From contig NZ_JACHIK010000002.1 in assembly GCF_014203155.1 (NCBI RefSeq), positions 248,001 to 312,000 on the forward strand: 64,000 bases of DNA, read 5' to 3'. The notes under the pieces were generated by a model. The model searched no databases and had not been told where the DNA came from. It worked only from the letters and a program-made list of their open reading frames with translations. The position numbers were made by a program, and so were the translations under genes. Within the stretch, counting starts at the first letter, position 1; each line of letters opens with the position of its first letter. Shown here one piece after another: positions 39,021 through 57,789 of the stretch. The stretch comes from Shinella fusca. Lineage in GTDB: Bacteria > Pseudomonadota > Alphaproteobacteria > Rhizobiales > Rhizobiaceae.

Positions 39021-39223
39021 GATCTTCTCCCCCCTGTTTGCGAGAAGCCCCAAGCGGCAACGCTCCGGTCATGCCGACCGGCGGCCGCTTTACCTCGTTG
39101 TTTTCGCTGGATTTGCGCAGCGTCGCGTGATTCCCCTGCAACGGCCCAAGGCCCGCATGGAGGCTACTTCAAAGTCCGTGGAATTGACAGAGGCAAGTCG
39201 CGTTACGGCTGCATTTTTCGCAG

Positions 39224-40390
39224 CTAGAGCAACCGCCGGACCACCAGCACCGTGATGTCGTCGAATTGCGCCGCGCCGTTGGCAAAGTCCTGCGCCTTGG
39301 CAAGCACGGCGCGGGCGAGCTCACCGGCCGGAAGGCCGCGGTTTGCGGCGATTTCTGCAAGGATGTTCTCCGTGCCGAACTGGGCCTGATCGGCGTCCTG
39401 CATGTCGGAAAGGCCGTCGGACGTCAGGAAAAGGCAGTCCCCGACGGCAAGGACAAGCTCGTGGTCGCGGAAATCCAGTCCCTCGATGACGCCGAGCGCC
39501 GGATCGGGCTGTGTCGCCAGTTCCGCGACGGAGGCCGCGTTGCTGAGGATCGGATAGACGTGGCCGGCATTGCAATAGGACAGGCGGCCGGTCGAAAGCT
39601 CGTAGAAGGCGAGGAAGAGCGTGACGAAGCGGGATTGCGGGTTGTTCTTGTTGAGCTCGTCATTGACGAGGGCGACGATCTCGGAGGGGCGCGGCACGCG
39701 GCCGGAAACGGCGTGGAACTGCAGCGTGCCGGCGCGCAGGAGGCTGCGCGTGCGGGCCATGAACAGCGCGGCCGAGGCACCCTTGCCGGCGACGTCGCCG
39801 ATCGCCAGGGCGATGAGGCCGGGTGCCACCTCGAAGACGTCGTAGAGATCGCCGCCCACCTCGAGCGCCGGATCGACGCTGGCGAAGATGTCGAGCTGTC
39901 CGGGATCGACCGGAAAGTCGCTCGGCAGCATGGATTGCTGGCAGAGCCAGGCTTCGGCGAGCTCCTGCTCGAGCCGTTCGAGCTGGCGCCGGTTCATGTC
40001 GCGCAGGAGCTTTCGCTCCAGCACCGCACCGACACGGGCGGCCAGCAGCGCCGGGTTGAACGGCTTGGGCAGGTAGTCTTCGGCGCCGAGCTCGATGCAG
40101 CGCACCACGGTCTCGATTTCCGATGCGGCGGAAATCATCACGACCGAGGAGGTCCGCAGCCAGCCTTCCTCCTTCAGGGCCTGCAACGCATCGATGCCGT
40201 TCATGCGCGGCATCATCACGTCGAGCAGGATGAGGTCGAAGGGCTCGGCGCGGACCTTGTCGAGTGCTTCGAGGCCGTCGCTTGCCTCCTGGACGTGGAC
40301 GAGCCCCTGCCGCCGCAGGCGGCGCGCAAGCACATCGCGGTTGTCCTCGACATCGTCGACGATGAGGATTTTCGCCTGTGAGAAATCCAA
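39224..40390 (-). CDS. Response regulator fused to PP2C/SpoIIE-type phosphatase (RsbU-like)
   Basis: About 388 residues. Receiver domain, residues 5-120, with the acidic pair at 12-13, phospho-acceptor Asp57 (DLILLDVMMPRMNG) and Lys109. A PP2C-type SpoIIE domain, from about 165 on, keeps the metal-binding aspartates: VGGDLYDVFE, IGDVAGKGASAALFMA, LTSDGLSDMQDAD, QFDDITVLVVRR. It should dephosphorylate a STAS protein when the receiver is phosphorylated. TTG 40390 with GAGG at 6-bp spacing is the best start; the frame stays open to a TTG at 40462. It follows tssE by 85 bp in the same direction. Confidence 0.85.
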   Translation of the reverse strand: MDFSQAKILIVDDVEDNRDVLARRLRRQGLVHVQEASDGLEALDKVRAEPFDLILLDVMMPRMNGIDALQALKEEGWLRTSSVVMISAASEIETVVRCIELGAEDYLPKPFNPALLAARVGAVLERKLLRDMNRRQLERLEQELAEAWLCQQSMLPSDFPVDPGQLDIFASVDPALEVGGDLYDVFEVAPGLIALAIGDVAGKGASAALFMARTRSLLRAGTLQFHAVSGRVPRPSEIVALVNDELNKNNPQSRFVTLFLAFYELSTGRLSYCNAGHVYPILSNAASVAELATQPDPALGVIEGLDFRDHELVLAVGDCLFLTSDGLSDMQDADQAQFGTENILAEIAANRGLPAGELARAVLAKAQDFANGAAQFDDITVLVVRRLL

Positions 40391-40475
40391 GGAGGGCCTC
40401 GTGATTGCTATGCGGAAGCGGTGCTCCGCCCCGCACGTTACGCCAAACGCGCTTTGTTGCAAGACGCCGGAGCGT

Positions 40476-40955
40476 CTAGCGTCCGTTGATCGACAGCATG
40501 CCGGTGACGGGATCGATCGCGGTGTTGAAGACCACCGCCTCGCTGGAGGACTCCGTTTCGAGCAGCGCGTTGATCTGGAAGCGCAGCACGCGCTCGACCT
40601 GGTTCTCCGGAACGATCAGCGCGACGGAGAGCTCGCGGAAGCGCGGCTCGAAGCGGCGGATGACTTCTTCGAGGTGCTTGCGGAACTGCTCCTGCTGCGT
40701 TGGGGAGGCGAGGTGCTGGCTCTGCACCTCCTGCAGGCCGTAGGAGAGGATCGACTGCTGAAGCTCCGCCAGCCGGGTATCGCCGGGCAGGCGGCCGGGG
40801 CGGGTGTTGAAGAGGATTTCGAGGTCGCGGCGCACGGATTCGTGCAATTCCTGCATGGCGCGGTCGACGCTGCGATCCGTCTCGATGCTGTCGCCCTGCA
40901 GCAGCCGGTCGAAAAGCGGCAGGCGGGGCGGGACCTTGTTGGGGGTGCGGGCCAT
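40476..40955 (-). CDS. tssE: T6SS baseplate protein TssE (gp25-like)
   Basis: 159 residues. The gp25/lysozyme-like baseplate fold is shown by VRRDLEILFNTRPGRLPGD-like motif (RRDLEILFNTRPG), the central YGLQEVQ, and the terminal RVLRFQINALLETE. TssE forms baseplate wedges with TssF and TssG; neither of those is in the window and they are probably beyond the right edge. It follows the second tssC-like gene by 9 bp. Confidence 0.93.
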   Translation of the reverse strand: MARTPNKVPPRLPLFDRLLQGDSIETDRSVDRAMQELHESVRRDLEILFNTRPGRLPGDTRLAELQQSILSYGLQEVQSQHLASPTQQEQFRKHLEEVIRRFEPRFRELSVALIVPENQVERVLRFQINALLETESSSEAVVFNTAIDPVTGMLSINGR

Positions 40956-40964
40956 GGCTCTTCC

Positions 40965-42494
40965 CTACCGCGTCCGCAACGTCTGCACTTCCGTGCGCAT
41001 GCGAAAGCCCGAGACGACCTGGTCGAACTGGAAATGCGGCTGGAGATGGAGCACGCAGTTCATGACGCCGTGGCGGCCGCTGACCTCGTTCATCTCGATG
41101 CGCGCGCCGGCAAGCGGATAGCGGGCCTTCAACTCGTCGCCGGCATCGGTGTTGCCGATCGTGTAGCCGCGCAGCCAGTCTTCGAGATAGCGTTCCAGCT
41201 CGTGCGGCGCCGTATAGGCGCCGACCCGGTCGCGGGCCATGATCTTCACGTAATGAGCGAAGCGGCTCATGCACATGACATAGTGCAGCATGGCCGAGAG
41301 CCGTCCGTTGACCTGCGCGGGCAGGTCGTTGTCGGCGGGTGCCGCATAGAGCGACTGGGCGCCGAGAAAGACGACGGAGCGATCGAAATTGCACGGGGTC
41401 AATGCGATGAAGCCGAGCGCTTCGAGGATCTTCTGCTTCTTGTCGGTCAGCTCCACTTCGAGCGGACGGCGATAGGCGACGGCCTCGCCGGTGGAGAAAT
41501 TCGCCACGGGAAGCTGGGAGACCACGCCGCCGGAATCGCGCTGGACGCCGCGCGTGCCGCACATGTCGGCGAACCAGCCGCGCTCGCGGAAGGCGCGGAT
41601 GGCGATGACGCCGAAGGCGAAGGCGGCATTGCCCCAGAGCCAGGAATCGACGCCCGTGCCGCCCTCGCTGTAGCGGAAACCGTCGAGCCGCGCGGCGCTG
41701 TCGCGGTAGCGGTCGCGCAGGAGGACGCGCGGCATGGCGATGCCGAGGAAGCGGCTGTCCTCGAGATCGCGCAACTGCCGCCAGCGATGGTATTCGCCGA
41801 GCTGGAAACCGGAATCCAGCCGCTGCGCATAGGAAAGGTCCGCGAAGGTGGTGACGCCGAAGAGCTCCGGCGCCGCACCGAGGATGCAGGGCGAGAACGC
41901 GGCGGCCGCGACCTGCGCCAGGCCCGTCAGCGTGCCGACGTCGTCCTGCGCGCCGCTGCCCGGCGCCGGGCGGTGCCGCACGGCATGGTCGCAGAGGAGA
42001 AGACCGTAGGGCACGCCACCGGGCATGCCGTATTCCTCGTTATACACCTTGGCGAAAAGCGTGCTCTGGTCGAATTCGATGGCGCGGTCGAAGTCGCGCG
42101 ACAATTCCGTCCAGGTGGCGTTGAAGAGCTTGACGCGGACCTTGTCGTCATTGCCGGTCTCGGAGAGCAGGAGGTCGACGCCGCGCCAGGAGGCTTCGAG
42201 GCGCTTGAATTCCGGCCGGTGGATGATGGCGTCGATCTGGTCGCCGAGAAGGACGTCGATGGCTGCGATGTCGCGCGTCAGCACCGCACGGCGCGTGGCG
42301 CGCGGGCCGAACCAGAGGCGAAGGCACTCTTCCGGGTCGTCGCTTGCAAGGAAGTGGTCGAGCGCGGCAGCCTCCTCGTCCGTGCCGCGGCCGAGCGCGG
42401 CGGCGACGATGCGAAGCCGGAGCCCGGCTTCGCTTTGTCTTGCACCATCGCCGCCGGAAGCGGCGTCCACGGCGATGGCGGCGTCTTCGTTCAT
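40965..42494 (-). CDS. Second TssC-like sheath protein (ImpD-type)
   Basis: 509 residues, clearly paralogous to the TssC upstream: matching segments include FKRLEASWRGVDLLLSETG, FDRAIEFDQSTLFAKVYNEE, MPGGVPYGLLL and SRFAHYVKIMARDRVGAYT. It differs by a longer N-terminal region (residues 1-80, with LALDHFLASDDPEECLRLWF-like AALDHFLASDDPEECLRLWF) and a distinct C-terminus. Rhizobial imp-type T6SS loci are known to carry such a second copy. Seven bp after tssC. It may cap the sheath or form mixed sheaths (inference). Confidence 0.88.
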   Translation of the reverse strand: MNEDAAIAVDAASGGDGARQSEAGLRLRIVAAALGRGTDEEAAALDHFLASDDPEECLRLWFGPRATRRAVLTRDIAAIDVLLGDQIDAIIHRPEFKRLEASWRGVDLLLSETGNDDKVRVKLFNATWTELSRDFDRAIEFDQSTLFAKVYNEEYGMPGGVPYGLLLCDHAVRHRPAPGSGAQDDVGTLTGLAQVAAAAFSPCILGAAPELFGVTTFADLSYAQRLDSGFQLGEYHRWRQLRDLEDSRFLGIAMPRVLLRDRYRDSAARLDGFRYSEGGTGVDSWLWGNAAFAFGVIAIRAFRERGWFADMCGTRGVQRDSGGVVSQLPVANFSTGEAVAYRRPLEVELTDKKQKILEALGFIALTPCNFDRSVVFLGAQSLYAAPADNDLPAQVNGRLSAMLHYVMCMSRFAHYVKIMARDRVGAYTAPHELERYLEDWLRGYTIGNTDAGDELKARYPLAGARIEMNEVSGRHGVMNCVLHLQPHFQFDQVVSGFRMRTEVQTLRTR

Positions 42495-42501
42495 CCGGGC
42501 G

Positions 42502-43995
42502 TCAGCCCATCTGCGGAATGCGTGCGACGAGGCGCATGGAAGCGGTCAGCTCTTCCATCTGCAGCCACGGGCGCAGGTAGGCGACGGCATTGTAGGCGCC
42601 CGGCGAACCCGGGATCTCCTTCACCGTGACCTGGGCTTCGGCCAGCGGATACTGCGCTTTCATCTCGGCGCTCGCATCCGGATTGCCGTTGACGAAGTTG
42701 CGGATCCAGTTGTTGAGCCAGGTCTCGCAATCGCTGACCTCGAGGAAGGAGCCGATCTTGTCGCGGCCCATGACCTTGAGGTAGTGCGAGAAGCGCGAGG
42801 TCGCCATGATGTAGGGCAGGCGGGCGGAGATCGCCGCGTTGGCCGTCGCATCCGGCTTGTCGTACTTCTTGGGACGCTGCGTCGTCTGGGCGCCGAAGAA
42901 CACCGCATAGTCCGTGCTCTTGTAGTGGCAGAGCGGCAGGAAGCCGAGCTTGGAGAGTTCGGCTTCGCGGCGGTCGGTAATGCCGATTTCCGTCGGGCAC
43001 TGCTGGTCGGCATCGCCGTCGTCGCTGGTGAAGGTGAAGGTCGGCAGGTTCTCCACCTTGCCGCCGCCTTCGGCGCCGCGGATGGCGACGCACCAGCCGT
43101 ACTTGGCGAAGGCCGAGGTCAGGCGCTCGCCAAGCGCATAGGACGCGTTCATCCAGGAGAACTCGTCCGACTTCATCTTCGAGACGACGCCGTTGGCGTC
43201 GATCGGCGCTTCCTCGAACTTGAACTCCTCGATCTGCTTGCCCTGCGAGCCGTAGGGAACGCGGGCGAGAACGCGCGGCATGGTGAGCGTGACGAAGCGG
43301 CTGTCCTCGCTGTCACGGAAACCGCGCCACTTGATGTATTCCGAGCTGTCGAAGATCTTTTCGAGATCGCGCGGCTTGGACAGTTCCGTGAAATTTTCCA
43401 GACCGAACATCTTCGGGCTCGCGGCCGAGATGAAGGGCGCGAAGGAGGCGGCGGCGACGTTCGACATGCCCTGCAGCACTTCGAGGTCTTCCGTGCCGTT
43501 GCCGAACTCGAAATCGCCGATCAGCGCGCCGTAGGGCTCGCCGCCGGGCGTGCCGAATTCGTTCTCGTAGAGCTTCTTGAAGATCTGGCTCTGGTCGAAT
43601 TCGACGGCCTTGGTCAGGTCCTTGTGCAGTTCCTTCTTCGTCATGTTGAGAACGCGGATCTTCAGCGTGGAGCTGGTCTCCGAGTTCTTGACGAGATAAT
43701 TGAGGCCGCGCCAGGAGCCTTCCAGTTTCTGGAATTCCTCGTTGTGCATGATCGCGGTGAGCTGCTTGGAAAGCTTCTCGTCGATCGCGGCGATGGCCTT
43801 GTTGAAGGTCTGCGTCAGGTTCTTGCTGAAGGTGACGGTGCCCGAAAGGGCTTCCGACGTCAGTGTGCGCAGGAGGTCCTGGATCTCGTCCGGCTCGGCC
43901 GTCTTGGTGACCTGGATGGCCTGGTCGAGAAGGCTCAGGGAGCCGGTTTCTTCGGCGACAGCGGCGCTGCCGGCTGCTTGGGTCTCGGCGCTCAT
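42502..43995 (-). CDS. tssC: T6SS contractile sheath large subunit TssC (VipB)
   Basis: 497 residues. Typical TssC motifs: [40 protein letters not shown] and [23 protein letters not shown] 43995 is chosen for AGGAG 8 bp upstream; the frame extends to a TTG at 44019 inside tssB. Together with TssB it forms the sheath whose contraction drives the Hcp tube. Gap to tssB is 4 bp, so expression is coupled. Confidence 0.95.
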
Positions 43996-43999
43996 TCCC

Positions 44000-44503
44000 T
44001 TACTCCTTTTCTGCGCCAAGCTCGCCGGCCAGAGCCGTCAGCTTGTCGGTGTTCTGCAGCACTTCCTCGAGCAGGCTTTCCAGCTCTTCGGAACGGTCGA
44101 CCTTGGACATCAGGTCGCGCAGCTTGTTGCGCACGGCCAGCAGCTTGCGCAGCGGCTCGACCTGGTCGACGATCGCGCCGGGCTCGAAGTCGTCGATCGA
44201 CTTGAACTTCAGCGAGACCGGCAGCAACGATTCGTCGCCCGCCAGCGTGTTCTCGACCTTGAACTCCGCGCCGGGCGTCATGCGCTGCATGACGTCGTCG
44301 AAATTGTCGCGGTCGACCTGGATGAACTTGCGGTCGCGCAGCGGCTTCTGCGGCTCGTAGGGCTTGCCGGAAAAGTCACCGATCACGCCGACGACGAAGG
44401 GTAGCTCCTTGCGGACCTGTGCGCCTTCCGTCTCCACGTCGTAGGTGATGTGGACGCGCGGTGCGCGCACTCTCTTCAGTTTCTGTTGAACGCTTTCTGC
44501 CAT
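44000..44503 (-). CDS. tssB: T6SS contractile sheath small subunit TssB (VipA)
   Basis: 167 residues. Family motifs [17 protein letters not shown] and [15 protein letters not shown], followed by [20 protein letters not shown], and the C-terminal helix that binds ClpV/TssC. ATG 44503. It precedes tssC and follows tssA by 42 bp. Confidence 0.96.
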
Positions 44504-44545
44504 GGCGGCCCCCTCTTCAAGCGGTGGATTTTCTGCAACTCGTCA

Positions 44546-45676
44546 TCAGTAACTCTGTTCGGCCGGCTCCGGCGGCTTGATGCCGGCCGCCAGCAGGATC
44601 CGCTGCAGGTGGGACGGATCCTCGACCAGTTCCAGCAGCAGTTCGGGCAGGCTCATGCGCGCTCGCCGGACGGCGTCGTCGAGCGTATAGGACATGGGCG
44701 AATGGGGCTCCGTCTTGCGGAAGTATGCGGCGATGCGGGACAGTTCCGCCAACGCCTCCTCACGCGACTGGTAGCCCTCGATCCTGCGCACGACGACGGT
44801 GGTTTCCCCCGCCGCCGTCGTTCCGGCTTCGCCCTCTTCCGCCGGGCCGGTCTCCTCGCTATCGGCAGAATAGTTCGCGACCGCGAGCTTGTCAGCGGCG
44901 AAATGGGTGATGGAGCGGGAGATTTCCTCCAGAAGCTCGCGCAGCGCCGAGACGGGCGGGGCATCCATGCCGGCGACCGCATCGAAGGCCGTGGACATGT
45001 CGGCAAGCGCGGCGAGCGCCTCGACGATGGCCGACTGGGTTTCGGCGAAGAAGCTGGCCGGCGTATCGGCCACGCTCTCCATGAACTGCTCCATCGTCAC
45101 GGCGCCGTTGTCGATGCGCTCCTGCCGGCGGGTGCTGTCGGTGACCTTGGAGAGGTCGGTCGCCTGCTCGTAATTCCACAGCGAGAAGCTGCCCTGCGAG
45201 CCGTTTGTGATCGGCACGAGGCGGATCGGCTGGATGAGAGTGCCGACGGCGCCCGAGCCGTTGAGGCCGGCGACCGCGGAAACCTTGCCTTCGACACCGT
45301 CCTCGTCGAGCTCGGGGAAGCAGGTTTCCCAGAAGCCGGTGACGATGCCCGTCATGACCTTCAGGCCGTCGCGCAGGCCCGCAAAGCCCTCCTGGCGCAG
45401 CAGCGCCTCGATCAGCCAGGCGGCGATTTCGAGGTCCTTGCCGTGCGCGCCGAGAATCTCCGTCGCCGTCTCGGCCACCGTATCCCATTCCTCCGGCGGC
45501 GCGCCGCCGATTTCCACGGTGGCGCGCTCGGCCGAGCGGGCGGCGTTGCGGGCATCCTTGGTGCGGTAGTAGAGCGAGGTGGGAGAGCTATCCGAACGCG
45601 GATCCTTTCCGGAAGGCGCATCTTCCGAAATCGGCTGGAGCAGAGCATCGATATCGATAACCTGCGGCAGAGCCAT
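44546..45676 (-). CDS. tssA: T6SS cap/baseplate protein TssA (ImpA N-terminal domain)
   Basis: 376 residues. The ImpA_N domain is visible in IDIDALLQPISEDAPSGKDP and SLYYRTKDARNAAR, and in KDLEIAAWLIEALLRQEGFAG. A C-terminal segment with YQSREEALAELSRIAAYFRK is the TssA extension, followed by SPMSYTLDDAVRRARMSLP. TssA primes baseplate and sheath assembly. ATG 45676 begins the family-conserved part; a GTG at 45745 in frame is possible. First of tssA-B-C-C2-E after a 172-bp gap from the preceding T6SS gene that may contain a promoter. Confidence 0.92.
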   Translation of the reverse strand: MALPQVIDIDALLQPISEDAPSGKDPRSDSSPTSLYYRTKDARNAARSAERATVEIGGAPPEEWDTVAETATEILGAHGKDLEIAAWLIEALLRQEGFAGLRDGLKVMTGIVTGFWETCFPELDEDGVEGKVSAVAGLNGSGAVGTLIQPIRLVPITNGSQGSFSLWNYEQATDLSKVTDSTRRQERIDNGAVTMEQFMESVADTPASFFAETQSAIVEALAALADMSTAFDAVAGMDAPPVSALRELLEEISRSITHFAADKLAVANYSADSEETGPAEEGEAGTTAAGETTVVVRRIEGYQSREEALAELSRIAAYFRKTEPHSPMSYTLDDAVRRARMSLPELLLELVEDPSHLQRILLAAGIKPPEPAEQSY

Positions 45677-45848
45677 GGGTAGAGATCCCTTCTTCCCTCG
45701 CGGGACGGTCACGGAGGCATCGGCCGCAAGCCGCTTCCACCGCACGTAAAAACAGAATTCTAACTCGGATACCGCTACTCATGCGGGCTGGCGAATGATG
45801 CTTAGCCCCAAATACTTAATCGACCTTGAAGCGAACCTTGCGATTCCT

Positions 45849-46466
45849 TCAGGATCCGTTCGCGCCCGTCGGGCGCTCGCCGGGCAGCCAGCCGTTGCCG
45901 CCGTTGGCGACGTTCACGGCCCGCACGACCGCCGTCTCGAAACGGTCGGCCAGCGTCGTCGCATCGCCCGCCGTGATCGACAGCAGCACCGACGCCCCGA
46001 CGCCGATCGGCCCGAGGCGCGGATCGGCTTCCGCGTCCGGCATGCCCTCCGGCGCCAGGCTTCCGCCCGACCAGAAGACGGCGAGCGCGGCATAAGCCGC
46101 CGCTCCGGTGAAATTGGCCGATTCGGCGCATTCCATGCAAGAGCGGCGACGGGCTTCGTCCGGCGCGTAGACCCAGGCGGCCGCCCGTTCGAGGCACAGG
46201 AGTTCCAGTTCCGTCGGAGCGTGGAGACTGGTCTTCGCCACCACATAGGCCCACCAGACCGCCTCGCGGATCGGCAGGGCGAAGGCGAGGAAGCGGATGG
46301 AATCCCCGATGTTCTCCGCATCGACGAGCAGCGACAGGAAGCCCTGCGGCGACAGGTCGGGCAGGAGGAAGGGCCGCGCCTCGGCAGACAGGTCCGCCCG
46401 GCCGCAGATCTCCTGCGCCGTTTCGGCCGTCACCTTGCGGAAGGCTTCCGTCTGGATCTTCACCAT
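45849..46466 (-). CDS. T6SS-associated hypothetical protein (TagX/DUF6931-like)
   Basis: 205 residues. The motif VFWSGGSLAPEG near residue 130 and the Cys/Ala-rich RRSCMECAESANFTGAAAYA resemble a family seen beside vgrG and hcp in T6SS loci (I place it with DUF6931 from memory, uncertain). The central LAFALPIREAVWWAYVV looks like a helical region. Its role is unknown; adaptors and accessory factors occur at this position. ATG 46466 has GAAGGG 4 bp upstream. It lies 49 bp after vgrG in the same operon. Confidence 0.62.
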   Translation of the reverse strand: MVKIQTEAFRKVTAETAQEICGRADLSAEARPFLLPDLSPQGFLSLLVDAENIGDSIRFLAFALPIREAVWWAYVVAKTSLHAPTELELLCLERAAAWVYAPDEARRRSCMECAESANFTGAAAYAALAVFWSGGSLAPEGMPDAEADPRLGPIGVGASVLLSITAGDATTLADRFETAVVRAVNVANGGNGWLPGERPTGANGS

Positions 46467-46515
46467 CTGCCCTTCGTTCCAGCAATTCCGGTTGCGCCCT
46501 CGCGCGGGAATTGTC

Positions 46516-48552
46516 TCAGTTGATCTTCACCATGCCGCCCTTGAGGATGGCCATGCCGTCGCCGGCGACATTGACGATCGGGCCCTTCACGTCGGTCTTG
46601 GCGGAGCCCTCGATCGAAAGGGTGACGCCCTTCATGGTGATCCCGCCCGGGGTGAGCTCCACCGTGCTGCCGCCGCATTTGAGGGTGATGCCCTGCATCG
46701 CCTCCAGCGTGATCTTGCCGGTGCTCGCCTTCGTCGTCTGGTTGCCCTGGTTGAGCGTCAGGCTGTCATTGCCCATCGTCAGCGTCACCGATCGGTCGCC
46801 CTGTTTCAGCGTCAGCGTGTCGTTGCCGGCCGAAAGCGTCTCGGTGCGATCGCCCTTGTCGATGTCGAGCGTGTCGTTGCCCGTCTCGATCTTTTGCGTC
46901 CGGTTGCCCTTCTTGATCGTCAGGCCGTCATTGCCCTCGGTGATCGTCGTGGTGCGGTCGTTCTTGATCGTGCGCTTCTGGTCGTGGCCGACATCCAGCG
47001 TGTCGTCGTTCTCCACCTCGCGCAGGAAATCCTTCTCGGCGTGGAAGGTGATCTTCTCCTCGCCCTTCTTGTCCTCGAAGGAAAGCTCGTTGGCGTTCGC
47101 CGTCTGGCCGGATTTGGTGCTGCGGGTCAGCAGCCCGCTCTTCGTCATGTTGCCGGGCAGGGCCCAGGGCGGCATGTTGTCGGCATTGTAGACGGCGCCC
47201 GTCACCAGCGGCCGGTCCGGGTCGCCGTCGAGGAACTGCACCACCACCTCCATGCCTATGCGCGGCACGAAGACCGAGCCCCAGTTGCTTCCGGCGAGCG
47301 ATTGCGCCACACGCACGAAGCAGGAGCTTTTCTCGTTCTTCTTGCCGTAGCGGTCCCAGTGGAACTGGACGCGGATGCGGCCGTACTTGTCCGTGTGGAT
47401 CTCCTCGCCCGACGGGCCGACGACGACGGCGGTCTGCGGCCCCTGCACGACGGGCTTCAGCATCGGCAGCGGATTGCGGGCGATGCGCGAGGCGGGCATG
47501 CAGGTGAAGCTGCTGCGGTAATAGGGCTTCACCTCGGCGCCGGGGCGCGTGGTGAAATGGGCGCGGTCGACCGCCTCGTGATGCACCTCGGTGAGGACGA
47601 GGCGGCGGTTTTCCGCGGCGACCGGATGGCCTTTCAACGTGAAGGCGTGGCCGCTGGTGAAGCTCGCGCAGGTGCCGGCGCCCGTCGCCGTCTCGAAACC
47701 CGCCTCGGCGGCATCGATGGCGACGGCGGCGAACTGCTTGAGGCTGTCCGCCTTCACGGAGGCGCCGGGGAAGCGGTAGTGCTCCCATTTCTTGCCCGAG
47801 GCCGGCTGCTGGTTCGTCTTGCGCTCGCCCTCGATATTGTTGGCGGGCTTTTCGAAATCGTAGTCCTCGATGTGCCAGACGGCATCGGTGAGGCTCGCGC
47901 CGGTATCGAAGACGTGCACGCTGTCGACGGCGTCTTCCTGCGCCTGGCGGTACTCCACCGTCGCCTGCGCGCAATCGGCATAGGCCGAGGTATTGTCGGC
48001 CAGCACCAGCTTGTGCTCGCCGTTCTTGTGCTTGAAGAAATAGAAGATGCCCTCTTCGGCGAGGATGCGCTGGAGGAAGGCGAAATCCGTTTCGCCGAAC
48101 TGCACGCGGTATTCCGATGTCTCGTAGGTGCCGTTGAGCTTCTTTTCGAAGGACACGTCGTTATCGCCGAGCACCTGTTCGGCGATGGCCACGACCGTCT
48201 TTTCCTGGAAGACCTTGTAGTCGGAGGTGCGCTGCAGCACCCACAGGCTCGGCGAGATCACGAGCGTATAGAGCCGGTAGTCGTTGCGCGTGAAGGCGCC
48301 GGCCGAAAAGGAGGTGACGATCCCGTTGACGAAGCGGCGCTTGCCGCCGGGCCGGGCAAGCGAGAGCGTCACGCTCTTGCCGAGCAGGTCCTTCGGATCG
48401 ATCGACTTGCGGGGGGAAAGGGCGCTGACCGTGAAGGAGAACAGGGTGGAAATGCCTTCGGTGCCGCGCGCTTCCGTCGCGACGAAGGCGTTCTCCCCGA
48501 GAGGTGTCTCGAGGGTGATCCAGCGGTCCTCTTGAACTAGGGTCGTCGCCAT
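46516..48552 (-). CDS. vgrG: T6SS spike protein VgrG (TssI)
   Basis: 678 residues. The gp27-like part (TLFSFTVSALSPRKSIDPKD, then FGETDFAFLQRILAEEGIFY) is followed by the OB-fold/gp5 core (GRIRVQFHWDRYGKKNEKSS, VRVAQSLAGSNWGSVFVPRI, FLDGDPDRPLVTGAVYNA) and a beta-helical tail made of 18-residue repeats. It ends without an added effector domain, so effectors would bind through PAAR or accessory proteins. The spike tip caps the Hcp tube. ATG 48552. Located between hcp and a TagX-like gene. Confidence 0.96.
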   Translation of the reverse strand: MATTLVQEDRWITLETPLGENAFVATEARGTEGISTLFSFTVSALSPRKSIDPKDLLGKSVTLSLARPGGKRRFVNGIVTSFSAGAFTRNDYRLYTLVISPSLWVLQRTSDYKVFQEKTVVAIAEQVLGDNDVSFEKKLNGTYETSEYRVQFGETDFAFLQRILAEEGIFYFFKHKNGEHKLVLADNTSAYADCAQATVEYRQAQEDAVDSVHVFDTGASLTDAVWHIEDYDFEKPANNIEGERKTNQQPASGKKWEHYRFPGASVKADSLKQFAAVAIDAAEAGFETATGAGTCASFTSGHAFTLKGHPVAAENRRLVLTEVHHEAVDRAHFTTRPGAEVKPYYRSSFTCMPASRIARNPLPMLKPVVQGPQTAVVVGPSGEEIHTDKYGRIRVQFHWDRYGKKNEKSSCFVRVAQSLAGSNWGSVFVPRIGMEVVVQFLDGDPDRPLVTGAVYNADNMPPWALPGNMTKSGLLTRSTKSGQTANANELSFEDKKGEEKITFHAEKDFLREVENDDTLDVGHDQKRTIKNDRTTTITEGNDGLTIKKGNRTQKIETGNDTLDIDKGDRTETLSAGNDTLTLKQGDRSVTLTMGNDSLTLNQGNQTTKASTGKITLEAMQGITLKCGGSTVELTPGGITMKGVTLSIEGSAKTDVKGPIVNVAGDGMAILKGGMVKIN
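46717..46932 (-). repeat. Four 54-bp coding repeats in the VgrG beta-helix
   Basis: Residues 541-612 are four consecutive 18-residue units, each beginning ND[GTS]L and carrying a G[DN][RQ] turn, for example NDTLDIDKGDRTETLSAG. They correspond to rungs of the gp5-like triple-stranded beta-helix; the preceding segment with KNDRTTTITEG looks like a degenerate fifth unit. Confidence 0.8.
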
Positions 48553-48616
48553 GGGGTATTACTGCCCGATGGATGCGCGTCGGGCGCGCATCGCCGCACG
48601 AAATGCCGTCGAGATC

Positions 48617-48653
48617 GGGGCACGGCCGCGGCGCCGGGCGGCGGCCGTGCCCC
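48617..48653. other. Very strong hairpin between hcp and vgrG
   Basis: Perfect 13-bp inverted repeat GGGGCACGGCCGC/GCGGCCGTGCCCC with an 11-nt loop, 19 bp after the hcp stop in transcription order. There is no T-run on the minus strand, so it is more likely a processing or stabilising structure that raises hcp mRNA above vgrG. Confidence 0.65.
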
Positions 48654-48672
48654 GAAGGGTCTTGAAAGGATA

Positions 48673-49149
48673 TCAGCCGCTCTTCGTCGAGGTGAGGTCG
48701 TAGTTGACCGTGACCGGCGTGCCGCCCTTGTTCTTGTCGTCGTAGGGAATGAACTTGAACTCGATCTTGGTGAAGTTGATCGAGATCGATTCCGACGGAC
48801 GGTCGCCGCCGGACGAGATGCTGTAGCCCGAGATGAGGCCGTTGGTCAGCACGTATTCGACATAGGTGTTGCCCGGGTTGCCGGTGCTGACGAGGTGGAT
48901 TTCCACCTTCTTGCCGGCGGTGCCCGTCACCGATTCGGTGAACAGCTTCGGCGAGGCGCCGTCGAGCTGCTTGGTGACGACGACTTCACTGATGTTCGGC
49001 TCGCTCGCTTCGCGGTTGGCGGTCGAGCCGGCCGGGGTGGAAATGCCGCGGCCGGTGCCGAACGTCAGCGACGTGATGTCGATCCATTTCTTGTGGGTAT
49101 CGTGCGTCGCTTCCCCGTCGATGCCTTCGTATTTCAGGTAGATTGCCAT
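48673..49149 (-). CDS. hcp: T6SS tube protein Hcp (TssD)
   Basis: 158 residues. Opening MAIYLKYEGIDGEAT and the pattern EVVVTKQLDGASPKLFTESV and EIHLVSTGNPGNTYVEYVL are characteristic of Hcp, which stacks into hexameric rings. No extended effector domain. ATG 49149 has the strong site AAGGGAG at 6-bp spacing, as expected for a highly made structural protein. It follows clpV by 72 bp. Confidence 0.97.
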   Translation of the reverse strand: MAIYLKYEGIDGEATHDTHKKWIDITSLTFGTGRGISTPAGSTANREASEPNISEVVVTKQLDGASPKLFTESVTGTAGKKVEIHLVSTGNPGNTYVEYVLTNGLISGYSISSGGDRPSESISINFTKIEFKFIPYDDKNKGGTPVTVNYDLTSTKSG

Positions 49150-49221
49150 GGTGCGCTCCCTTCGTATTCGGATTGAGTTCGATCGATGTGCCGCGGCGGC
49201 GCAAGGGCCGCCCGGTATGCC

Positions 49222-51936
<2,715 letters not shown>

Positions 51937-52073
51937 GAAAGCCCCCCAGCTTTTGCCGCACCGACCAGACGACCACAGATCAGCGCAATTGACGAATCAC
52001 ATCAAATCACATGTGAGCGGAATTGTTACCCACTTAATTCCGAGTTCCCGCAAAAGTCCACGCCCGAGCCGCT

Positions 52074-52403
52074 TCAACCGGCGAGTGCGGCCTCGACATT
52101 GGCATAAATCGGAAACAACCTTAAGAAACCGCTCATCTCGAACACCAGCCGGATACGGCTGTTGAGGCCTGCCAGGACCATGCTGCCGCCGGCCGCGCGG
52201 ACCTTCTTGGCGGCCGAAAGGAAGGCGGAAAGCCCGGTGCTGCTGATATAGTCGAGGCCTGTCAGATCGATGACGAGGTGAACATCCCCCCGTTCGACGA
52301 CCGCCGTCAGGTGCCGGTCGAAAACGGGCGAGGTCTGGCTGTCGATCCGCCCCGTGGGGGTGACGACGAGCTTGCTGCCTTGCCGGGCCTCGGTGATGTT
52401 CAT
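52074..52403 (-). CDS. STAS-domain anti-sigma-factor antagonist (RsbV/SpoIIAA-like)
   Basis: 109 residues, a single STAS domain. The phosphorylation motif LDYISSTGLSAFLSAAKK has the conserved serine at 54-55. RsbV-type proteins switch partners: unphosphorylated they bind and neutralise a HATPase kinase, phosphorylated they release it. ATG 52403 is used with AAGG 10 bp upstream; a GTG at 52436 is in frame. First gene of the leftward T6SS operon, 137 bp before clpV, and divergent from the matching kinase gene. Confidence 0.85.
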   Translation of the reverse strand: MNITEARQGSKLVVTPTGRIDSQTSPVFDRHLTAVVERGDVHLVIDLTGLDYISSTGLSAFLSAAKKVRAAGGSMVLAGLNSRIRLVFEMSGFLRLFPIYANVEAALAG

Positions 52404-52532
52404 GATGATATTGACCTTACGCTTTTCGTTGATCACTCTGGCATTTCGCCGGACGGCGTCGAATGCAGGCGATGATTCCAGAAAGTCGTATCACTTGCCA
52501 CAACGTTTTTTGAAACCTAGCGGTGTGCCGGC
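52404..52532. promoter_or_regulatory. Divergent T6SS promoter region
   Basis: 129 bp between the STAS gene and the kinase gene, from which both T6SS operons diverge. It contains a T-run patch (ACAACGTTTTTTGAAACCTA, 52500-52519). No sigma-54 type GG/GC pair was recognised. Confidence 0.5.
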
Positions 52533-53549
52533 GTGACGGCGGGCGACCCTCTGTCGGAGGACGGCCTGGTCGCGCAGCTTCGCGCGCTGCTTGCACCGCA
52601 GCGCTTTCCCGTACGGCGCGAGGTCGAACTCGAGGGCGGTGCGCACGACGCAGGCGGCGCGATCTCCTTTCATGATCACTTCTGGCCGGCGCGCTCGGTT
52701 CTGGCCGTCAGCGCCGTGCGGGTGGCAGGCGGCGACGTTGCCGCGGCCTTGCGCGCGGCCGGCGTCAAGCAGTTGATTCGGGCCGTTCTCGCCACGGCGC
52801 GCACGGCGGATGAAGCCCTGGACGTCCTTGCCGCACGAACCGACGCAACCGGCCTCGACATCGCGCTGGTCGTGCTCGACGTGGTCGCCGGCACGGCCTC
52901 CGGCGCTTTCCGCGGAAAGGCGGCGGTGACGCTGGCGGGCGAGGGGCGTCTTGCGGCCGGCGACATGCTGTGGCTGACGGCCGGCGGCATGGACATTCCG
53001 CAGGAGGCGACGGCCGCGCCGGTGGAGGGCATGGCCGCCCTTGTCCGCGCCCGCATCGGCCATGGCGCGTCCGGCGCCGTCTGCGCCGTGCTTTTCAAGG
53101 CGCGCGGGCGGCTCGCCGAGGAGACCGTCTTTTCGATCGGCAATACGCATGGCGATATTCAGGCCGCGGGTGAGAAGGCACGCCGCTTCCTGGAGATGCA
53201 CGGCGCCTGCGAGGCGGATCTGACCGGCATCGACGTCGCGCTCGACGAGGTGCTGACCAATGCCGTCAACTATGGCTTCGAGGACGGCAATGCGCATGAG
53301 ATCCTGCTGGCGCTCTCGATCGCGAGAGGATCCCTGACCATCGAGGTACAGGACGACGGCCGGCCGTTCGACCCGCTCGGCATTCCCGCGCCCGATCTCG
53401 ATGCGGACCTCGAAAGCCGGCAGATCGGCGGGCTCGGCATGCATTTCGTCCGCACGCTGCTTGACAGGGTTTCCTATGAGCGCCGTAATGGCTGGAACGT
53501 GTTGAAACTGGAAAAGCAGCTCGCCGGCCTGGCTGAGAGGGCATCATGA
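52533..53549 (+). CDS. HATPase anti-sigma-type kinase with degenerate PP2C domain (RsbW-like)
   Basis: 338 residues. The C-terminal third (about 220-330) is a HATPase_c kinase of the RsbW/SpoIIAB type: N box DVALDEVLTNAVNYGFEDGN, G1 DDGRPFDP, G2 GGLGMHFV. The N-terminal part (about 45-160) aligns in order with SpoIIE phosphatases (an AVRVAGGDVAAALRAA segment, then LAAGDMLWLTAGG) but lacks the metal-binding aspartates, so it is probably a non-catalytic regulatory module. GTG 52533 has no strong ribosome site. The stop overlaps the PAAR start as ATGA: kinase and spike tip are translationally coupled. Confidence 0.82.
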   Translation: MTAGDPLSEDGLVAQLRALLAPQRFPVRREVELEGGAHDAGGAISFHDHFWPARSVLAVSAVRVAGGDVAAALRAAGVKQLIRAVLATARTADEALDVLAARTDATGLDIALVVLDVVAGTASGAFRGKAAVTLAGEGRLAAGDMLWLTAGGMDIPQEATAAPVEGMAALVRARIGHGASGAVCAVLFKARGRLAEETVFSIGNTHGDIQAAGEKARRFLEMHGACEADLTGIDVALDEVLTNAVNYGFEDGNAHEILLALSIARGSLTIEVQDDGRPFDPLGIPAPDLDADLESRQIGGLGMHFVRTLLDRVSYERRNGWNVLKLEKQLAGLAERAS

Positions 53550-53926: not shown

Positions 53927-53927
53927 C

Positions 53928-55004
53928 GTGCGCCTTTCCCATTTCGAGAAACTGCGGCCGGTCTGCCCGGTCTGCCGGCTGAGCGGACAGGACAATGGAC
54001 TGGCGCTCACCACTGTCGAAGCCGAGGCGGCCGGCGACGTCCGGATGGGCATTCTCGCCTGCCAAGGCTGCGGCTCGGAATTCCCCATTGTCGACGGCAT
54101 GCCGATCATCGTGCCGGAGGTGCGCCGCTTCGTACAGGAGAACCTGTTCTACCTCCTGGCGCGCAACGACCTGACGCCTGCCGTGGAAAGCCTGCTCGGC
54201 GATGCGGCGGGTCCGGGCAGCGGTCTTGAATCGATCCGCCAGCATGTCTCCTCCTATGCCTGGGACCATTGGGGCGACCAGGATCCGTCGCCCTTTGCGC
54301 CGGTGCCGGGTGGCGGTGCGCCCGGCGCGGTGGCGCGCAATCTCGGTGAAGCCCTCGACAGGCTCGGCGACCTGCCGGAGGGGCCGGTGCTCGACATCGG
54401 CTGCGCGGCGGGCCGTACCGTGACGGAAGCTGCCGAGCGGCTCGGCCGGGATGTCGTCGGCATCGATCTTTCCGTGCCGCTGGCGCGCATTGGCCGGCAG
54501 GCCGTGGTCGGCGGCCGCATCGACTATGGCCTTCGGCGCGTCGGCCTCGTCTACGACCGGCGGTCCTATGCGCTCCGCCACGGGGCAGGCGCGCGCGGCG
54601 ACGTCTGGCTCTGCGATGCGCTGGCGCTGCCCTTTTCCGCCGGCACCTTCGCGCTCGCCATCGGCATGAACGTCGTCGACTGCATGCGCGATCCGCGCGC
54701 CGGGCTCGTCGAGGTCAGCCGCGTCCTGGCGGACGAGGGACGGGCGGTATTCTCCATTCCCTTCGACTGGGCAGGGCAGGTGACGCCGGTGGAAGCCTGG
54801 CTCGGAGGCCACTCGCAACGCTCCGGCCATGCCGGCAGTCCCGAGGCGATCCTCGATCTTCTGCTTTCCGAGGGACCGCTTGCCGCCGGAAGCCTTCGCC
54901 GCATCGGAGCGGTCGGGGAAGTGCCCTGGCACGTCCGGCTGCACGACCGCTCCTGCATGTATTATTCCGCCTATCTGGTAGTCGCCCGCAAGGCGGTGGG
55001 GTAA
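53928..55004 (+). CDS. SAM-dependent methyltransferase with N-terminal zinc ribbon
   Basis: 358 residues. An N-terminal Cys4 zinc ribbon (Cys13, Cys16, Cys45, Cys48) of the Trm112/RNA-polymerase type is followed by a Rossmann methyltransferase with SAM motif VLDIGCAAGRT from residue 154 and VVGIDLS; MNVVDCMRDP and AGLVEVSRVLADEGR follow. GTG 53928. It is inside the T6SS operon between PAAR and FHA genes, so the methyl acceptor may be a T6SS component or an effector (inference). It could also be involved in small-molecule methylation. Confidence 0.75.
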   Translation: MRLSHFEKLRPVCPVCRLSGQDNGLALTTVEAEAAGDVRMGILACQGCGSEFPIVDGMPIIVPEVRRFVQENLFYLLARNDLTPAVESLLGDAAGPGSGLESIRQHVSSYAWDHWGDQDPSPFAPVPGGGAPGAVARNLGEALDRLGDLPEGPVLDIGCAAGRTVTEAAERLGRDVVGIDLSVPLARIGRQAVVGGRIDYGLRRVGLVYDRRSYALRHGAGARGDVWLCDALALPFSAGTFALAIGMNVVDCMRDPRAGLVEVSRVLADEGRAVFSIPFDWAGQVTPVEAWLGGHSQRSGHAGSPEAILDLLLSEGPLAAGSLRRIGAVGEVPWHVRLHDRSCMYYSAYLVVARKAVG

Positions 55005-55070: not shown

Positions 55071-55829
55071 ATGCGATTGCGACTCGTACTCAAGGGGCCC
55101 GAGCGCCTGACGTCCGGTTTGCGGGAGAAAACCGTCGAGACGGGGTCCATCGTCATCGGCCGGTCGCAAGAGGCCGACTGGGTTCTCGCAGACCCCGAGC
55201 GCATCGTTTCCAAGCGCCATTGCCGCGTCGAACGCCAGGCAGGCGGTTTCCTGCTCACCGACATGTCCACCAACGGCGTCCTGGTCAACGGCATCCCGCT
55301 CGGTCGAGAGGCCTCCCGCCTGCTGGTCGACCGGGACGTGCTGACGCTCGGCGACGCGATCATCGCCGTCTTCCTCGAAACGGATGCGCCGGCGCAGGAT
55401 GTCAAGGCCCCGCAGCCCGTCGTTGCGGACGATCCCTTCCCCGAGGGGCCGTTCGGTTTCGATACCGTGGCCGCGGAGGCTGCAACGGCGGTCGTTCTGC
55501 CGGAAACGGCGGCGGAGAATGCCAGGGGCAAGGTTGCGGTCTTACAGGACTGGTGGATTCCCGATGCGACGGACCGGCATGGCGAGCCGAAATCTGTGGA
55601 TATCCCCGGGGGCATGGGGAATGCCTCGAATGCACATACCATTGCGCTGGGGGAGGCGGTAGCCTCGCCGCTCAATGGGGAATCGAATCTCGTCGCGCAG
55701 GCGGAAGGGCTGGACGTGGCGGTGTTCGCCAGGGCTGTTGAAGCGGCGATGTCGGTCTTGTCGGTAGACGAAAAGCGTAGGCTTGAGGGGCGGTTGCGTG
55801 ACCTCCTTCGCAAGGAGAAGGCGGGTTGA
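55071..55829 (+). CDS. T6SS FHA-domain protein (Fha-like)
   Basis: 252 residues. The N-terminal FHA domain is complete: IVIGRSQEADWVLADPE, ERIVSKRHCRVE and LLTDMSTNGVLVNG, the phosphothreonine-recognition loops. A non-conserved linker and a C-terminal helical region (AEGLDVAVFARAVEAAMSVL) follow. FHA proteins of T6SS are scaffolds that respond to threonine phosphorylation. ATG 55071 with GGGGG 5 bp upstream is preferred over GTG 55065. The stop overlaps the tssJ start. Confidence 0.85.
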   Translation: MRLRLVLKGPERLTSGLREKTVETGSIVIGRSQEADWVLADPERIVSKRHCRVERQAGGFLLTDMSTNGVLVNGIPLGREASRLLVDRDVLTLGDAIIAVFLETDAPAQDVKAPQPVVADDPFPEGPFGFDTVAAEAATAVVLPETAAENARGKVAVLQDWWIPDATDRHGEPKSVDIPGGMGNASNAHTIALGEAVASPLNGESNLVAQAEGLDVAVFARAVEAAMSVLSVDEKRRLEGRLRDLLRKEKAG

Positions 55830-56386
55830 CGACTGGAATGTCTCCAGTGGTGTGGTGGCCGACAAGGGCGTGCGCGGCCGTTTCGCGCCCTTTGGCGCTT
55901 CTCCTGTGCGCGTGCCTGCTTGCCTTGCCTCTTTCCGGTTGCGGCCTGATACCGAAGAAGCCGCCGCCGAAGGAGATCGAGATCAAGCCGGCGCCGGCCG
56001 CGGCGAGCCTCGACGTCATCGCCGTCGCCTCGCCGCTCGTCAATCCGGGGCCTGACGGCCTGCCGCAGCCCGTGGTCATGCGGCTCTACCAGCTTAACGG
56101 CGAGACGGCATTCGCCAATGCCAGCTTTCGCCAGCTCTGGGAGGCCGATGCCGAGACGCTCGGGCCGACGATGCTGGGCAAGACGGAGCTCTATTTCGCA
56201 CCGGGCGAGGTGCAAAGGGTGAAGGCGAACCTGATCGAGGGCACGACGATCGTTGCCGTCGTGGTCGGGTTCCGCAATTTCGAGGAGGCCAAGTGGCGCG
56301 CGATGGTCGGGCTTCAGGGGGACAAGCGCTTCAAGCTCAAGGCCGAGCTGAAGACGCTGTCCATCGAACTGGGGCCGCAGGACTGA
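55826..56386 (+). CDS. tssJ: T6SS outer-membrane lipoprotein TssJ
   Basis: 186 residues. Hydrophobic signal (ALLLCACLLALPLSGCG) with a lipobox LPLSGC, so it is anchored in the outer membrane. The beta-sandwich part contains QPVVMRLYQLNGETAFANAS and YFAPGEVQRVKANL. TTG at 55826 is taken because AAGGAG lies 8 bp upstream and it overlaps the FHA stop; ATG 55838 is possible. TssJ links TssM to the outer membrane in the membrane complex. Confidence 0.88.
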   Translation: MTTGMSPVVWWPTRACAAVSRPLALLLCACLLALPLSGCGLIPKKPPPKEIEIKPAPAAASLDVIAVASPLVNPGPDGLPQPVVMRLYQLNGETAFANASFRQLWEADAETLGPTMLGKTELYFAPGEVQRVKANLIEGTTIVAVVVGFRNFEEAKWRAMVGLQGDKRFKLKAELKTLSIELGPQD

Positions 56387-56457: not shown

Positions 56458-57789
56458 ATGTCGTTCGATGACAAGGTGATCTGGTCGGAGGGGATGTTTA
56501 TCCGTGCCCAGCACTTCCAGCAGGAGGCGCGCCACTTCGAGCGCCAGCTTCGCGCCCGCACCAAGGGGCTCGTGCCCTATGGCTGGGGCCTGACGGAACT
56601 GCGCCTCAACCGCGAACTCCTCTCCATCGGCCAGTTCGCCGTCGAGCGCGCCTCCGGCATCTTTGCCGACGGCACGCCCTTCTCCCTTCCCGACGACAGC
56701 CTGCGGCTGCCCCCGCTGATGCTGAACGAGAACGTCCGCAATGCCGTCATCTATCTCACGCTGCCGCTGACGGAACCGGGCGGACGCGAGGTGGCCGAAG
56801 CCGAGGCCGAGCTGACGACGCGCTATACGCTCGCCGAGATCGACGTCGCCGACGCCAACAGTTCCGATCTTTCCGCCGCGCCCATCAATGTCGGCAAGCT
56901 GCGCCTGCGCTATGGCCTGGAGACGAGCGATCGCAGCGGCCTCGTCGGCATCGGGCTCGCGCGCATCGTGGAGGTGCGCAGCGACAATTCCGTGGTGCTC
57001 GACGAGAGCTACGTGCCTCCGGCCATGGATTGCGCCGTCTCGCCGATCCTCTCCGGCCTGCTCACCGAGATCGTCGGCCTGCTCAACCATCGCGGCGAGG
57101 CGATCGCCGGGCGGCTGGCCGGCACCAATGTCGGCACGGCGGCGGAAATCACCGACCTGATGATGCTCCAGACCATCAACCGCTGGCAGCCCGTCTTCAC
57201 ACACATGGCCTCCGCCGCCTTCGTGCATCCCGAGCGATTGTTCGTGGCGATGATCGGCCTTGCCGGCGAGCTTGCCACCTTCACGGCGGCCGGTCACCGC
57301 CCGCGGCCGTTCCCGGTCTACGATCACGAGCGCCTGCAGCTTTCCTTCGCGCCGGTCGCCGCTGCCGTGCGCCAGGCGCTCAGCGCGGTGCTGGAACGCA
57401 GCGCCATCACAATCCCGCTTGTCGAGCACCGTTACGGCATCCGCGTCGCCGACGTGCCGGATCGCTCGATCTACTCGAAATATTCCTTCATCCTCGCGGC
57501 CAAGGCCGACATGCCAGCCGATGCGCTGGTGCGCCGGCTCGTCGGCCAGATCAAGATCGGCGCCGCCGAGCAGATCACGGAACTGGTCAATGCGGCGCTG
57601 CCGGGCATCATGCTGCGTGCACTGCCGGTCGCTCCGCGCCAGATCCCCTATCATACCGGAAAGGCGTATTTCGAACTCGACCGCTCCAGCCCGATCTGGA
57701 AGCAGGTCGCCGCCGGCAACGGGCTTGCCATCCACGTCGCCGGCGATTTCCCGGCGCTCGAACTCGACCTTTGGGCCGTGAAGGATTGA
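56458..57789 (+). CDS. tssK: T6SS baseplate protein TssK
   Basis: 443 residues. N-terminal signature KVIWSEGMFIRAQHFQQEAR and PYGWGLTELRLNRELL, then AVIYLTLPLTEP and the C-terminal half with RVADVPDRSIYSKYSFILAA. TssK connects the baseplate to the TssL/TssM membrane complex. ATG 56458, 71 bp after tssJ, with an Arg-rich spacer carrying the ribosome site GTGAGGAAGGG. Confidence 0.95.
   Translation: MSFDDKVIWSEGMFIRAQHFQQEARHFERQLRARTKGLVPYGWGLTELRLNRELLSIGQFAVERASGIFADGTPFSLPDDSLRLPPLMLNENVRNAVIYLTLPLTEPGGREVAEAEAELTTRYTLAEIDVADANSSDLSAAPINVGKLRLRYGLETSDRSGLVGIGLARIVEVRSDNSVVLDESYVPPAMDCAVSPILSGLLTEIVGLLNHRGEAIAGRLAGTNVGTAAEITDLMMLQTINRWQPVFTHMASAAFVHPERLFVAMIGLAGELATFTAAGHRPRPFPVYDHERLQLSFAPVAAAVRQALSAVLERSAITIPLVEHRYGIRVADVPDRSIYSKYSFILAAKADMPADALVRRLVGQIKIGAAEQITELVNAALPGIMLRALPVAPRQIPYHTGKAYFELDRSSPIWKQVAAGNGLAIHVAGDFPALELDLWAVKD

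Follow-up and report, generated by a model that had tools for sequence, protein, structure and literature searches.

The partner-switching systems RsbU/V/W and SpoIIE/AA/AB of Bacillus subtilis are built from three protein families, a SpoIIE-type PP2C phosphatase, a STAS antagonist and a HATPase serine kinase. In HsbR-HsbA and CrsR-CrsA, a receiver, a PP2C and a HATPase domain are reportedly joined in one protein and paired with a STAS protein, on which the receiver-controlled PP2C is said to act. Here we describe the same three families within a type VI secretion system (T6SS) cluster of Shinella fusca, in a window of 64,000 nucleotides (the whole stretch of DNA that was analysed, C2:248001-312000 of the 4.85-Mb genome). 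A module of this kind tied to a secretion system is known from Bordetella, where BtrU, BtrV and BtrW are a SpoIIE phosphatase, a STAS protein and a HATPase serine kinase; the Btr proteins belong with a type III secretion system (T3SS), and their locus carries the ECF sigma factor BtrS and the secreted anti-sigma factor BtrA (PMC7498569, PMC8256260). Unlike Btr, the Shinella module stands with a T6SS and has no sigma70/ECF match nearby (no search was made for BtrA), a degenerate PP2C domain is joined to its kinase and a receiver to its phosphatase. The residues SpoIIAA Ser58 and those of the RsbW N-box align with the Shinella proteins, whereas the locus differs from the B. subtilis systems in having no sigma70/ECF match. 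In contrast to HsbR and CrsR, Shinella encodes its active PP2C and its kinase separately, with a degenerate PP2C retained in the kinase.

The original prediction had placed a STAS antagonist at the head of the leftward T6SS operon, an RsbW-like HATPase kinase at the head of the divergent operon and a receiver-PP2C phosphatase in the leftward tail, and the analysis bore out all three placements. The switch genes are also embedded among T6SS structural genes as described there, with tssH to tssE standing between the STAS gene and the phosphatase. With moderate confidence, we regard these genes as a partner-switching module dedicated to gating its own T6SS through a non-sigma output, maybe in place of the threonine-phosphorylation pathway. 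The three genes are as follows:

52074..52436, minus strand: STAS-domain protein (SpoIIAA/RsbV-like), 120 aa as the longest open reading frame (ORF); TIGR00377/PF01740
52533..53549, plus strand: kinase fusion, 338 aa; PF13581 (HATPase_c_2) and RsbW alignment
39224..40462, minus strand: receiver-SpoIIE (PP2C) phosphatase, 412 aa as the longest ORF, start uncertain; PF00072 and PF07228

The STAS protein matches TIGR00377 (ant_ant_sig) over its cut-off (E 5e-24) and PF01740 (E 4e-23), and it is the single TIGR00377 STAS protein at E <= 1e-10 in its genome. Its start is likely Met12 (about position 52403). In an alignment with SpoIIAA and RsbV chains, a phosphorylatable serine, Ser66 of the longest ORF (Ser55 counted from Met12), falls at the position of SpoIIAA Ser58 and is identical in all six proteins compared, from five Shinella genomes and Aureimonas. 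The SpoIIAA chain 1tid_B has alanine at this place and is presumably the S58A form. The gene is the first of the leftward series, separated from tssH by a gap of 137 bp. A scan of 51900-52700 for promoters and terminators found none. Between the STAS and kinase genes lies a T-rich block (52492-52516) that is conserved in the five Shinella genomes and has no sigma70-type match; it is possibly an operator or promoter.

The kinase gene opens the rightward series, divergent from the STAS gene. Its HATPase_c_2 match covers residues 209-327 (E 6e-23), and this domain aligns with RsbW and carries the boxes of an RsbW-type kinase, namely the Glu/Asn N-box (Glu239/Asn243), DxG (Asp274-Gly276) and GxG (GGLG), all invariant in the six alignment rows. 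It is the one strong HATPase_c_2 match in the genome (2e-23), the 17 others being at 6e-8 or weaker.

Residues 1-205 of the kinase, which the original prediction had passed over, match no Pfam family, and a search of the PDB with this domain gave a best match of only E 0.5. A profile of six kinase N-termini nevertheless aligned to a profile of nine SpoIIE proteins with a probability of 91%, E 1e-6 and a score of 52.6, against scores of at most 21.5 for 20 of 20 column-shuffled controls, 18.3 and 20.0 for reversed profiles and 8.2 for the STAS profile. Where the active phosphatase has Asp205, Asp223 and Asp349, the kinase has Ser45, Arg63 and Gly151, and across the six rows these places hold Ser, Arg or Ser, and Gly, never Asp. 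Asp48, which matches Asp208, is retained in all six. An Asp stands one place past the D349 position in four of the six, so that a shifted alignment is possible there, and the profile alignment does not extend to the D401/D402 pair, for which no DD is seen in the kinase by eye. The invariant catalytic Asp residues of active PP2C enzymes are thus not all present, and a bifunctional kinase/phosphatase was rejected because three catalytic Asp are lost, though Asp48 remains. From its sequence, we predict the protein to be a pseudophosphatase-kinase fusion with a degenerate PP2C/SpoIIE-like domain at residues 1-205, and as such it would offer a natural pseudophosphatase for study. Within what was searched, the fusion appears only in Shinella and Aureimonas, since every other HATPase match listed in our class and order surveys begins at query position 162 or later.

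The phosphatase matches Response_reg and SpoIIE (E 2e-45) and carries the full catalytic Asp set, with Asp205, Asp208, Asp223, Asp349, Asp401 and Asp402 invariant in all nine alignment rows. Its gene lies 13 bases 3' of tssE, measured on the longest ORF, the start of which is uncertain.

A full-length kinase was found in five of the 21 genomes of the genus, S. fusca included (the others being G010, G011, G013 and G014). In all five, the STAS gene is divergent from the kinase gene and a PAAR and a methyltransferase gene follow on the kinase side, and the receiver-PP2C gene lies 3' of tssE. Identities between S. fusca and the other four reach 82-92% for STAS and 81-87% for the receiver-PP2C protein. 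Since gene order at this locus is shared by five Shinella genomes, the three-gene arrangement is not due to chance, and conserved synteny likewise led us to reject chance similarity of the STAS, kinase and phosphatase genes. The same cluster occurs in another family, on plasmid pAU20a of Aureimonas sp. AU20, with identities of 71% (STAS), 42% (kinase) and 58% (receiver-PP2C); for the kinase this splits into 38% in the PP2C half and 49% in the HATPase half. At 71%, the STAS protein comes close to TssB, TssC and TssH (74-76%) in its conservation. On pAU20a the receiver-PP2C gene has been relocated to the tssG/kinase end, still in the cluster, where it adjoins two annotated response regulators. 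A scan with two very specific peptides matched only four Shinella loci.

TagF is the usual companion of the threonine pathway and is not part of the phosphorylation itself. Neither TagF_N (PF09867, E <= 0.01) nor the PppA-type PP2C_2 family (PF13672, E <= 0.001) had a match in any of the five Shinella genomes; three of four and four of four comparison genomes, respectively, were positive. When TagF and PppA proteins were compared by tblastn with the Shinella and Aureimonas loci, the only matches were 38-residue PppA fragments (E 0.003-0.012) within the neighbouring Shinella SpoIIE gene. A PpkA-like Ser/Thr kinase is encoded outside the window (L009:12086-12868, about window position 69085-69867). 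Its loop reads HRDIKPAH or HRDVKPAH in the five Shinella genomes and HQDLKPAH, with DLG for DFG, in Aureimonas, so that the HRDxKPxN pattern is absent from all six; the catalytic Asn is retained in two annotated plasmid kinases and in the genomes G208, G726, G334 and G075. The PpkA-like protein of Shinella and Aureimonas is therefore likely a pseudokinase, and the usual TagF/PppA/PpkA control is, as far as these motifs and matches tell, eroded in the five Shinella genomes, a feature that the original prediction had not noticed. The module shares with the PpkA/PppA/Fha and TagF pathway reversible phosphorylation encoded in a T6SS cluster and the presence of an FHA protein (PMC10482370, PMC5995506). 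It differs in having no TagF or PppA match, a degenerate PpkA-like kinase and a serine switch of another family instead. According to one of these papers, threonine phosphorylation triggers the T6SS in several bacteria and some T6SSs are without parts of the pathway (PMC10482370).

Partner-switch genes were also sought in other T6SS loci, in a class sample of 385 alphaproteobacterial genomes, of which 70 had TssC, and in an order sample of 397 genomes, of which ten had a HATPase match at E <= 1e-25. Among the 70 TssC genomes, 22 had HATPase_c_2 at E <= 1e-10 (31 matches) and 20 had a TIGR00377 STAS protein at E <= 1e-10. We read the stretches around the pair in G334, G075, G182, G195, G208 and G111, G208 being identified by reading its contig and not by its distance to TssC, and judged the other T6SS-positive HATPase genomes by how far TssC lay from the match on its contig; a weak match 35 kb from TssC (G326) and one 49 kb away (G331) were not counted. 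Genes of these genomes were called with a simple GC3-based caller and BLAST to a small reference set, which leaves unlabelled genes unidentified. The strongest case outside Shinella and Aureimonas, G726 from the order sample (TssC about 40% identical), has a HAMP-SpoIIE gene directly before tssA-tssB-tssC...tssF-tssG, with vgrG and overlapping STAS and HATPase genes on the opposite strand and PpkA 1.4 kb further on. In G208, two hcp genes and tssH run leftward, and STAS (divergent from tssH), PpkA and HATPase run rightward. In G334, a single ORF on the opposite strand separates tssH from a SpoIIE gene 1.3 kb upstream of it, and a HATPase-STAS pair lies 1.4 kb past tssJ. G075 is a weak case: about 8 kb separate its HATPase, STAS and SpoIIE genes from FHA, the first T6SS gene recognised there. 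Of the 39 HATPase matches from both samples, 26 have a STAS gene within about 1.5 kb and 12 a SpoIIE-type PP2C, and many are therefore partner-switch genes.

A tree was built from 44 HATPase rows, comprising these 39 matches with loci, four Shinella proteins (S. curvata left out) and Aureimonas, with weaker matches without loci excluded. With G075 counted as T6SS, nine rows are so marked and need five changes on the tree (shuffled mean 8.3), and a single clade of T6SS-marked kinases was rejected (AU p = 7e-7). The Shinella and Aureimonas kinases group together (93/83, on an unstarred branch). Because the T6SS kinases do not form one clade, repeated recruitment of partner-switch kinases into T6SS loci is suggested.

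We consider gating of the T6SS, direct or indirect, the most likely role of the module because its placement is conserved, because more than one kinase lineage occurs in T6SS loci and because the same lineage has lost TagF, PppA and PpkA function. Phosphotransfer, the binding partners, the direction of control and the T6SS as target are what we infer, as is the control of T6SS expression, assembly or firing put forward in the original prediction. The HATPase half of the fusion would phosphorylate STAS on Ser66, and the degenerate PP2C half would probably hold STAS or sense its phosphorylation state. The receiver-SpoIIE protein would dephosphorylate STAS once its receiver is phosphorylated by some histidine kinase. 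Either STAS or the kinase fusion, once released from STAS, would then bind a T6SS component or accessory protein, so that assembly is permitted or blocked; FHA, TssK/TssL and ClpV would be the first candidate targets. In Shinella and Aureimonas, the module may now fill the place of the eroded PpkA/PppA/TagF pathway. A stronger proposal, that here the serine-based switch displaced the threonine pathway as the post-translational T6SS trigger, with the fusion and STAS acting directly on the machinery, two-component input through the receiver-PP2C protein and no sigma factor, is possible but doubtful. If gating is true, it would provide a testable alternative T6SS trigger that links the T6SS to two-component input, and would extend non-sigma partner switching from the T3SS (Btr) to the T6SS.

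Several results weigh against gating. A STAS/HATPase pair in or near the T6SS was found in only four of the 70 T6SS-positive genomes (S. fusca, G334, G208 and, weakly, G075), and most are without the switch. Without S. fusca, three co-locations (one weak) compare with 0.43 expected for a 12-kb flank or 0.72 for a 30-kb flank (P 0.010 or 0.037 in a rough Poisson calculation that takes the T6SS to be 30 kb long), which is modestly above chance. TssC is present in only 11 of the 41 genomes with such HATPase matches, and STAS/HATPase pairs often lie away from any T6SS. Four annotated plasmid T6SS loci with a related TssC2 (Azospirillum argentinense, Pseudoroseomonas cervicalis, Tistrella mobilis and Rhizobium johnstonii) show neither a STAS nor a HATPase gene, and none of their records is among the 12 matched by the kinase or the 36 matched by STAS in tblastn; in the stretches shown, TagF is annotated in all four, and a PP2C and a Ser/Thr kinase in three each. 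The starred branches of the tree force only two changes. A relative of the G334 cassette in G182 (STAS 73%, SpoIIE 48%, neighbour 46% identical) lies on a 10.7-kb contig with no recognised T6SS gene, and the two halves of the G334 cassette flank its T6SS; the T6SS may therefore have entered a pre-existing cassette in G334. Finally, G334, G726 and G208 retain TagF and PP2C_2 beside the switch, and replacement of the threonine pathway is thus not general. The arrangement, whose absence from related T6SS loci the original prediction had named as a refutation, recurs in the five Shinella genomes, Aureimonas, G334, G726 and G208, while the rule that such T6SSs always carry the switch was rejected on the four plasmid loci and the class survey.

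The best-surviving alternative to gating is a transcriptional output, in which the kinase would be an anti-sigma factor for a sigma factor encoded elsewhere, or would act on another regulator, with the T6SS in that regulon. The STAS and HATPase proteins do show similarity to the anti-sigma antagonist and RsbW families (RsbW models staying below their cut-offs), the genome offers possible targets in 12 sigma70/ECF matches over cut-off (14 in all), and in Aureimonas the annotation places a sigma-54-dependent regulator about 4.4 kb past tssM. The sigma factor of an Rsb/Spo-type or Btr-type locus is missing here, however: as the original prediction had observed, no sigma gene lies near, the closest sigma70/ECF match on C2 being at 418257, about 117 kb from the kinase, in a search that did not include sigma-54 and covered the S. 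fusca genome and not the loci of G334, G726 and G208. No sigma factor is annotated in the 41-kb Aureimonas stretch either, and we rate a transcriptional output as rather unlikely.

It is less probable still that the output of the switch is something next to the T6SS, such as the methyltransferases, an effector, or a second phosphatase/HATPase module to the right. A methyltransferase gene does lie two genes past the kinase, and a second cluster with two SpoIIE phosphatases, a HATPase and a methyltransferase is found beyond the Ser/Thr kinase, yet the 41-kb Aureimonas stretch has the switch and no match to the HATPase of the second cluster or to the 278-aa orphan proposed as an effector. This second cluster (L009:13297-19013, about window position 70296-76012 and thus outside the window) holds a HATPase protein with a weak DUF6272 match, a Cache-HAMP-SpoIIE protein, a methyltransferase whose N-terminus looks STAS-like by eye, a 232-aa protein assigned to no family and a further SpoIIE protein; the four genes tested (the two phosphatases, the HATPase and the 232-aa protein) are kept in all five Shinella loci. 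The orphan (38217-39053), with Gly/Ala-rich stretches and no Pfam family, stands at the operon tail 3' of tssE in all five Shinella genomes with 87-93% identity, and is possibly T6SS cargo.

That the genes are mere passengers, a mobile cassette landed beside the T6SS and kept by linkage, would suit the many partner-switch cassettes without a T6SS, the flanking halves in G334 and the modest co-location, but is most improbable given the placement conserved in five Shinella genomes and another family, the Aureimonas phosphatase that moved and yet stayed within the cluster, and the G726 switch genes interleaved with vgrG, tssA and ppkA.

A paper on the Pseudomonas HptB pathway is said to contain both T6SS and anti-anti-sigma terms. 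In openly licensed PubMed Central literature, judged from listings, no partner switch in a T6SS locus was found; one may already have been described in other literature. The words partner, anti-sigma, STAS, SpoIIE and serine kinase are all absent from a 2023 review on how the T6SS is regulated, the passages found in a review of STAS-only proteins deal with type III secretion and not with the T6SS, and Boyer 2009 contains none of the terms tried.

All T6SS core genes are present in one cluster that runs from about 40.5 kb to past the window end, a continuation that the original prediction had missed. Leftward, the order is STAS, tssH, hcp, vgrG, DUF6931, tssA, tssB, tssC, a second tssC, tssE and receiver-SpoIIE; rightward, it is the kinase fusion, PAAR, methyltransferase, FHA, tssJ, tssK, tssL, an IcmF-N protein and tssM. 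Past the window end follow the rest of TssM, TssF, TssG, a methyltransferase and the small degenerate Ser/Thr kinase; tssM, tssF and tssG were named by open frame and by gene order in annotated Aureimonas. The remaining genes of the cluster in the window are:

49222..51936, minus strand: tssH/clpV, 76% identity to annotated TssH of Aureimonas pAU20a
48673..49149, minus strand: hcp, by BLAST to annotated Hcp
46516..48552, minus strand: vgrG/tssI, by BLAST to annotated TssI
45849..46466, minus strand: DUF6931 protein, PF22011 (E 4e-39)
44546..45745, minus strand: tssA, TIGR03363
44000..44503, minus strand: tssB, 75% identity to annotated TssB
42502..44019, minus strand: tssC, TIGR03355 (E 3e-209)
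40965..42494, minus strand: second tssC-like gene, TIGR03355 (E 1e-116)
40476..40955, minus strand: tssE, TIGR03357
53546..53926, plus strand: PAAR protein, PF05488, its start overlapping the kinase stop by 4 bases
53928..55004, plus strand: methyltransferase, PF08241/PF13649
55065..55829, plus strand: FHA-domain protein (TagH/Fha-like), PF00498, TIGR03354 below its cut-off
55826..56386, plus strand: tssJ, 50% identity to annotated TssJ
56458..57789, plus strand: tssK, 64% identity to annotated TssK
57800..59269, plus strand: tssL (IcmH/DotU), 49% identity to annotated IcmH/DotU
59266..61053 (L009:2267-4054), plus strand: IcmF-N-terminal-domain protein, PF14331 (E 5e-42)
61053..64000 (L009:4054-7569), plus strand: tssM, running past the window end, a 1171-aa open frame in the place of annotated Aureimonas TssM, named without a family scan

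The second tssC was rejected as an oddity, two tssC genes being annotated in related loci. The separate IcmF-N protein (59266-61053), directly 5' of tssM, is also annotated in Aureimonas and was found in G334, and the PAAR-methyltransferase pair (53546-55004) occurs in the T6SSs of Aureimonas, G334 and G075 as well.

Two further loci carry partner-switch genes in other surroundings. On a Sphingomonas paeninsulae plasmid (L069:11474-12866), STAS and HATPase genes are divergent as in Shinella and stand next to a SET-domain methyltransferase gene, with no T6SS gene annotated in the stretch. In G195 (L122:9953-17979), genes for a membrane-fusion-type protein and for an ABC exporter whose N-terminus looks peptidase-like by eye come after those for a STAS protein, a SpoIIE sensor and a HATPase, and the switch may there serve another export system too.

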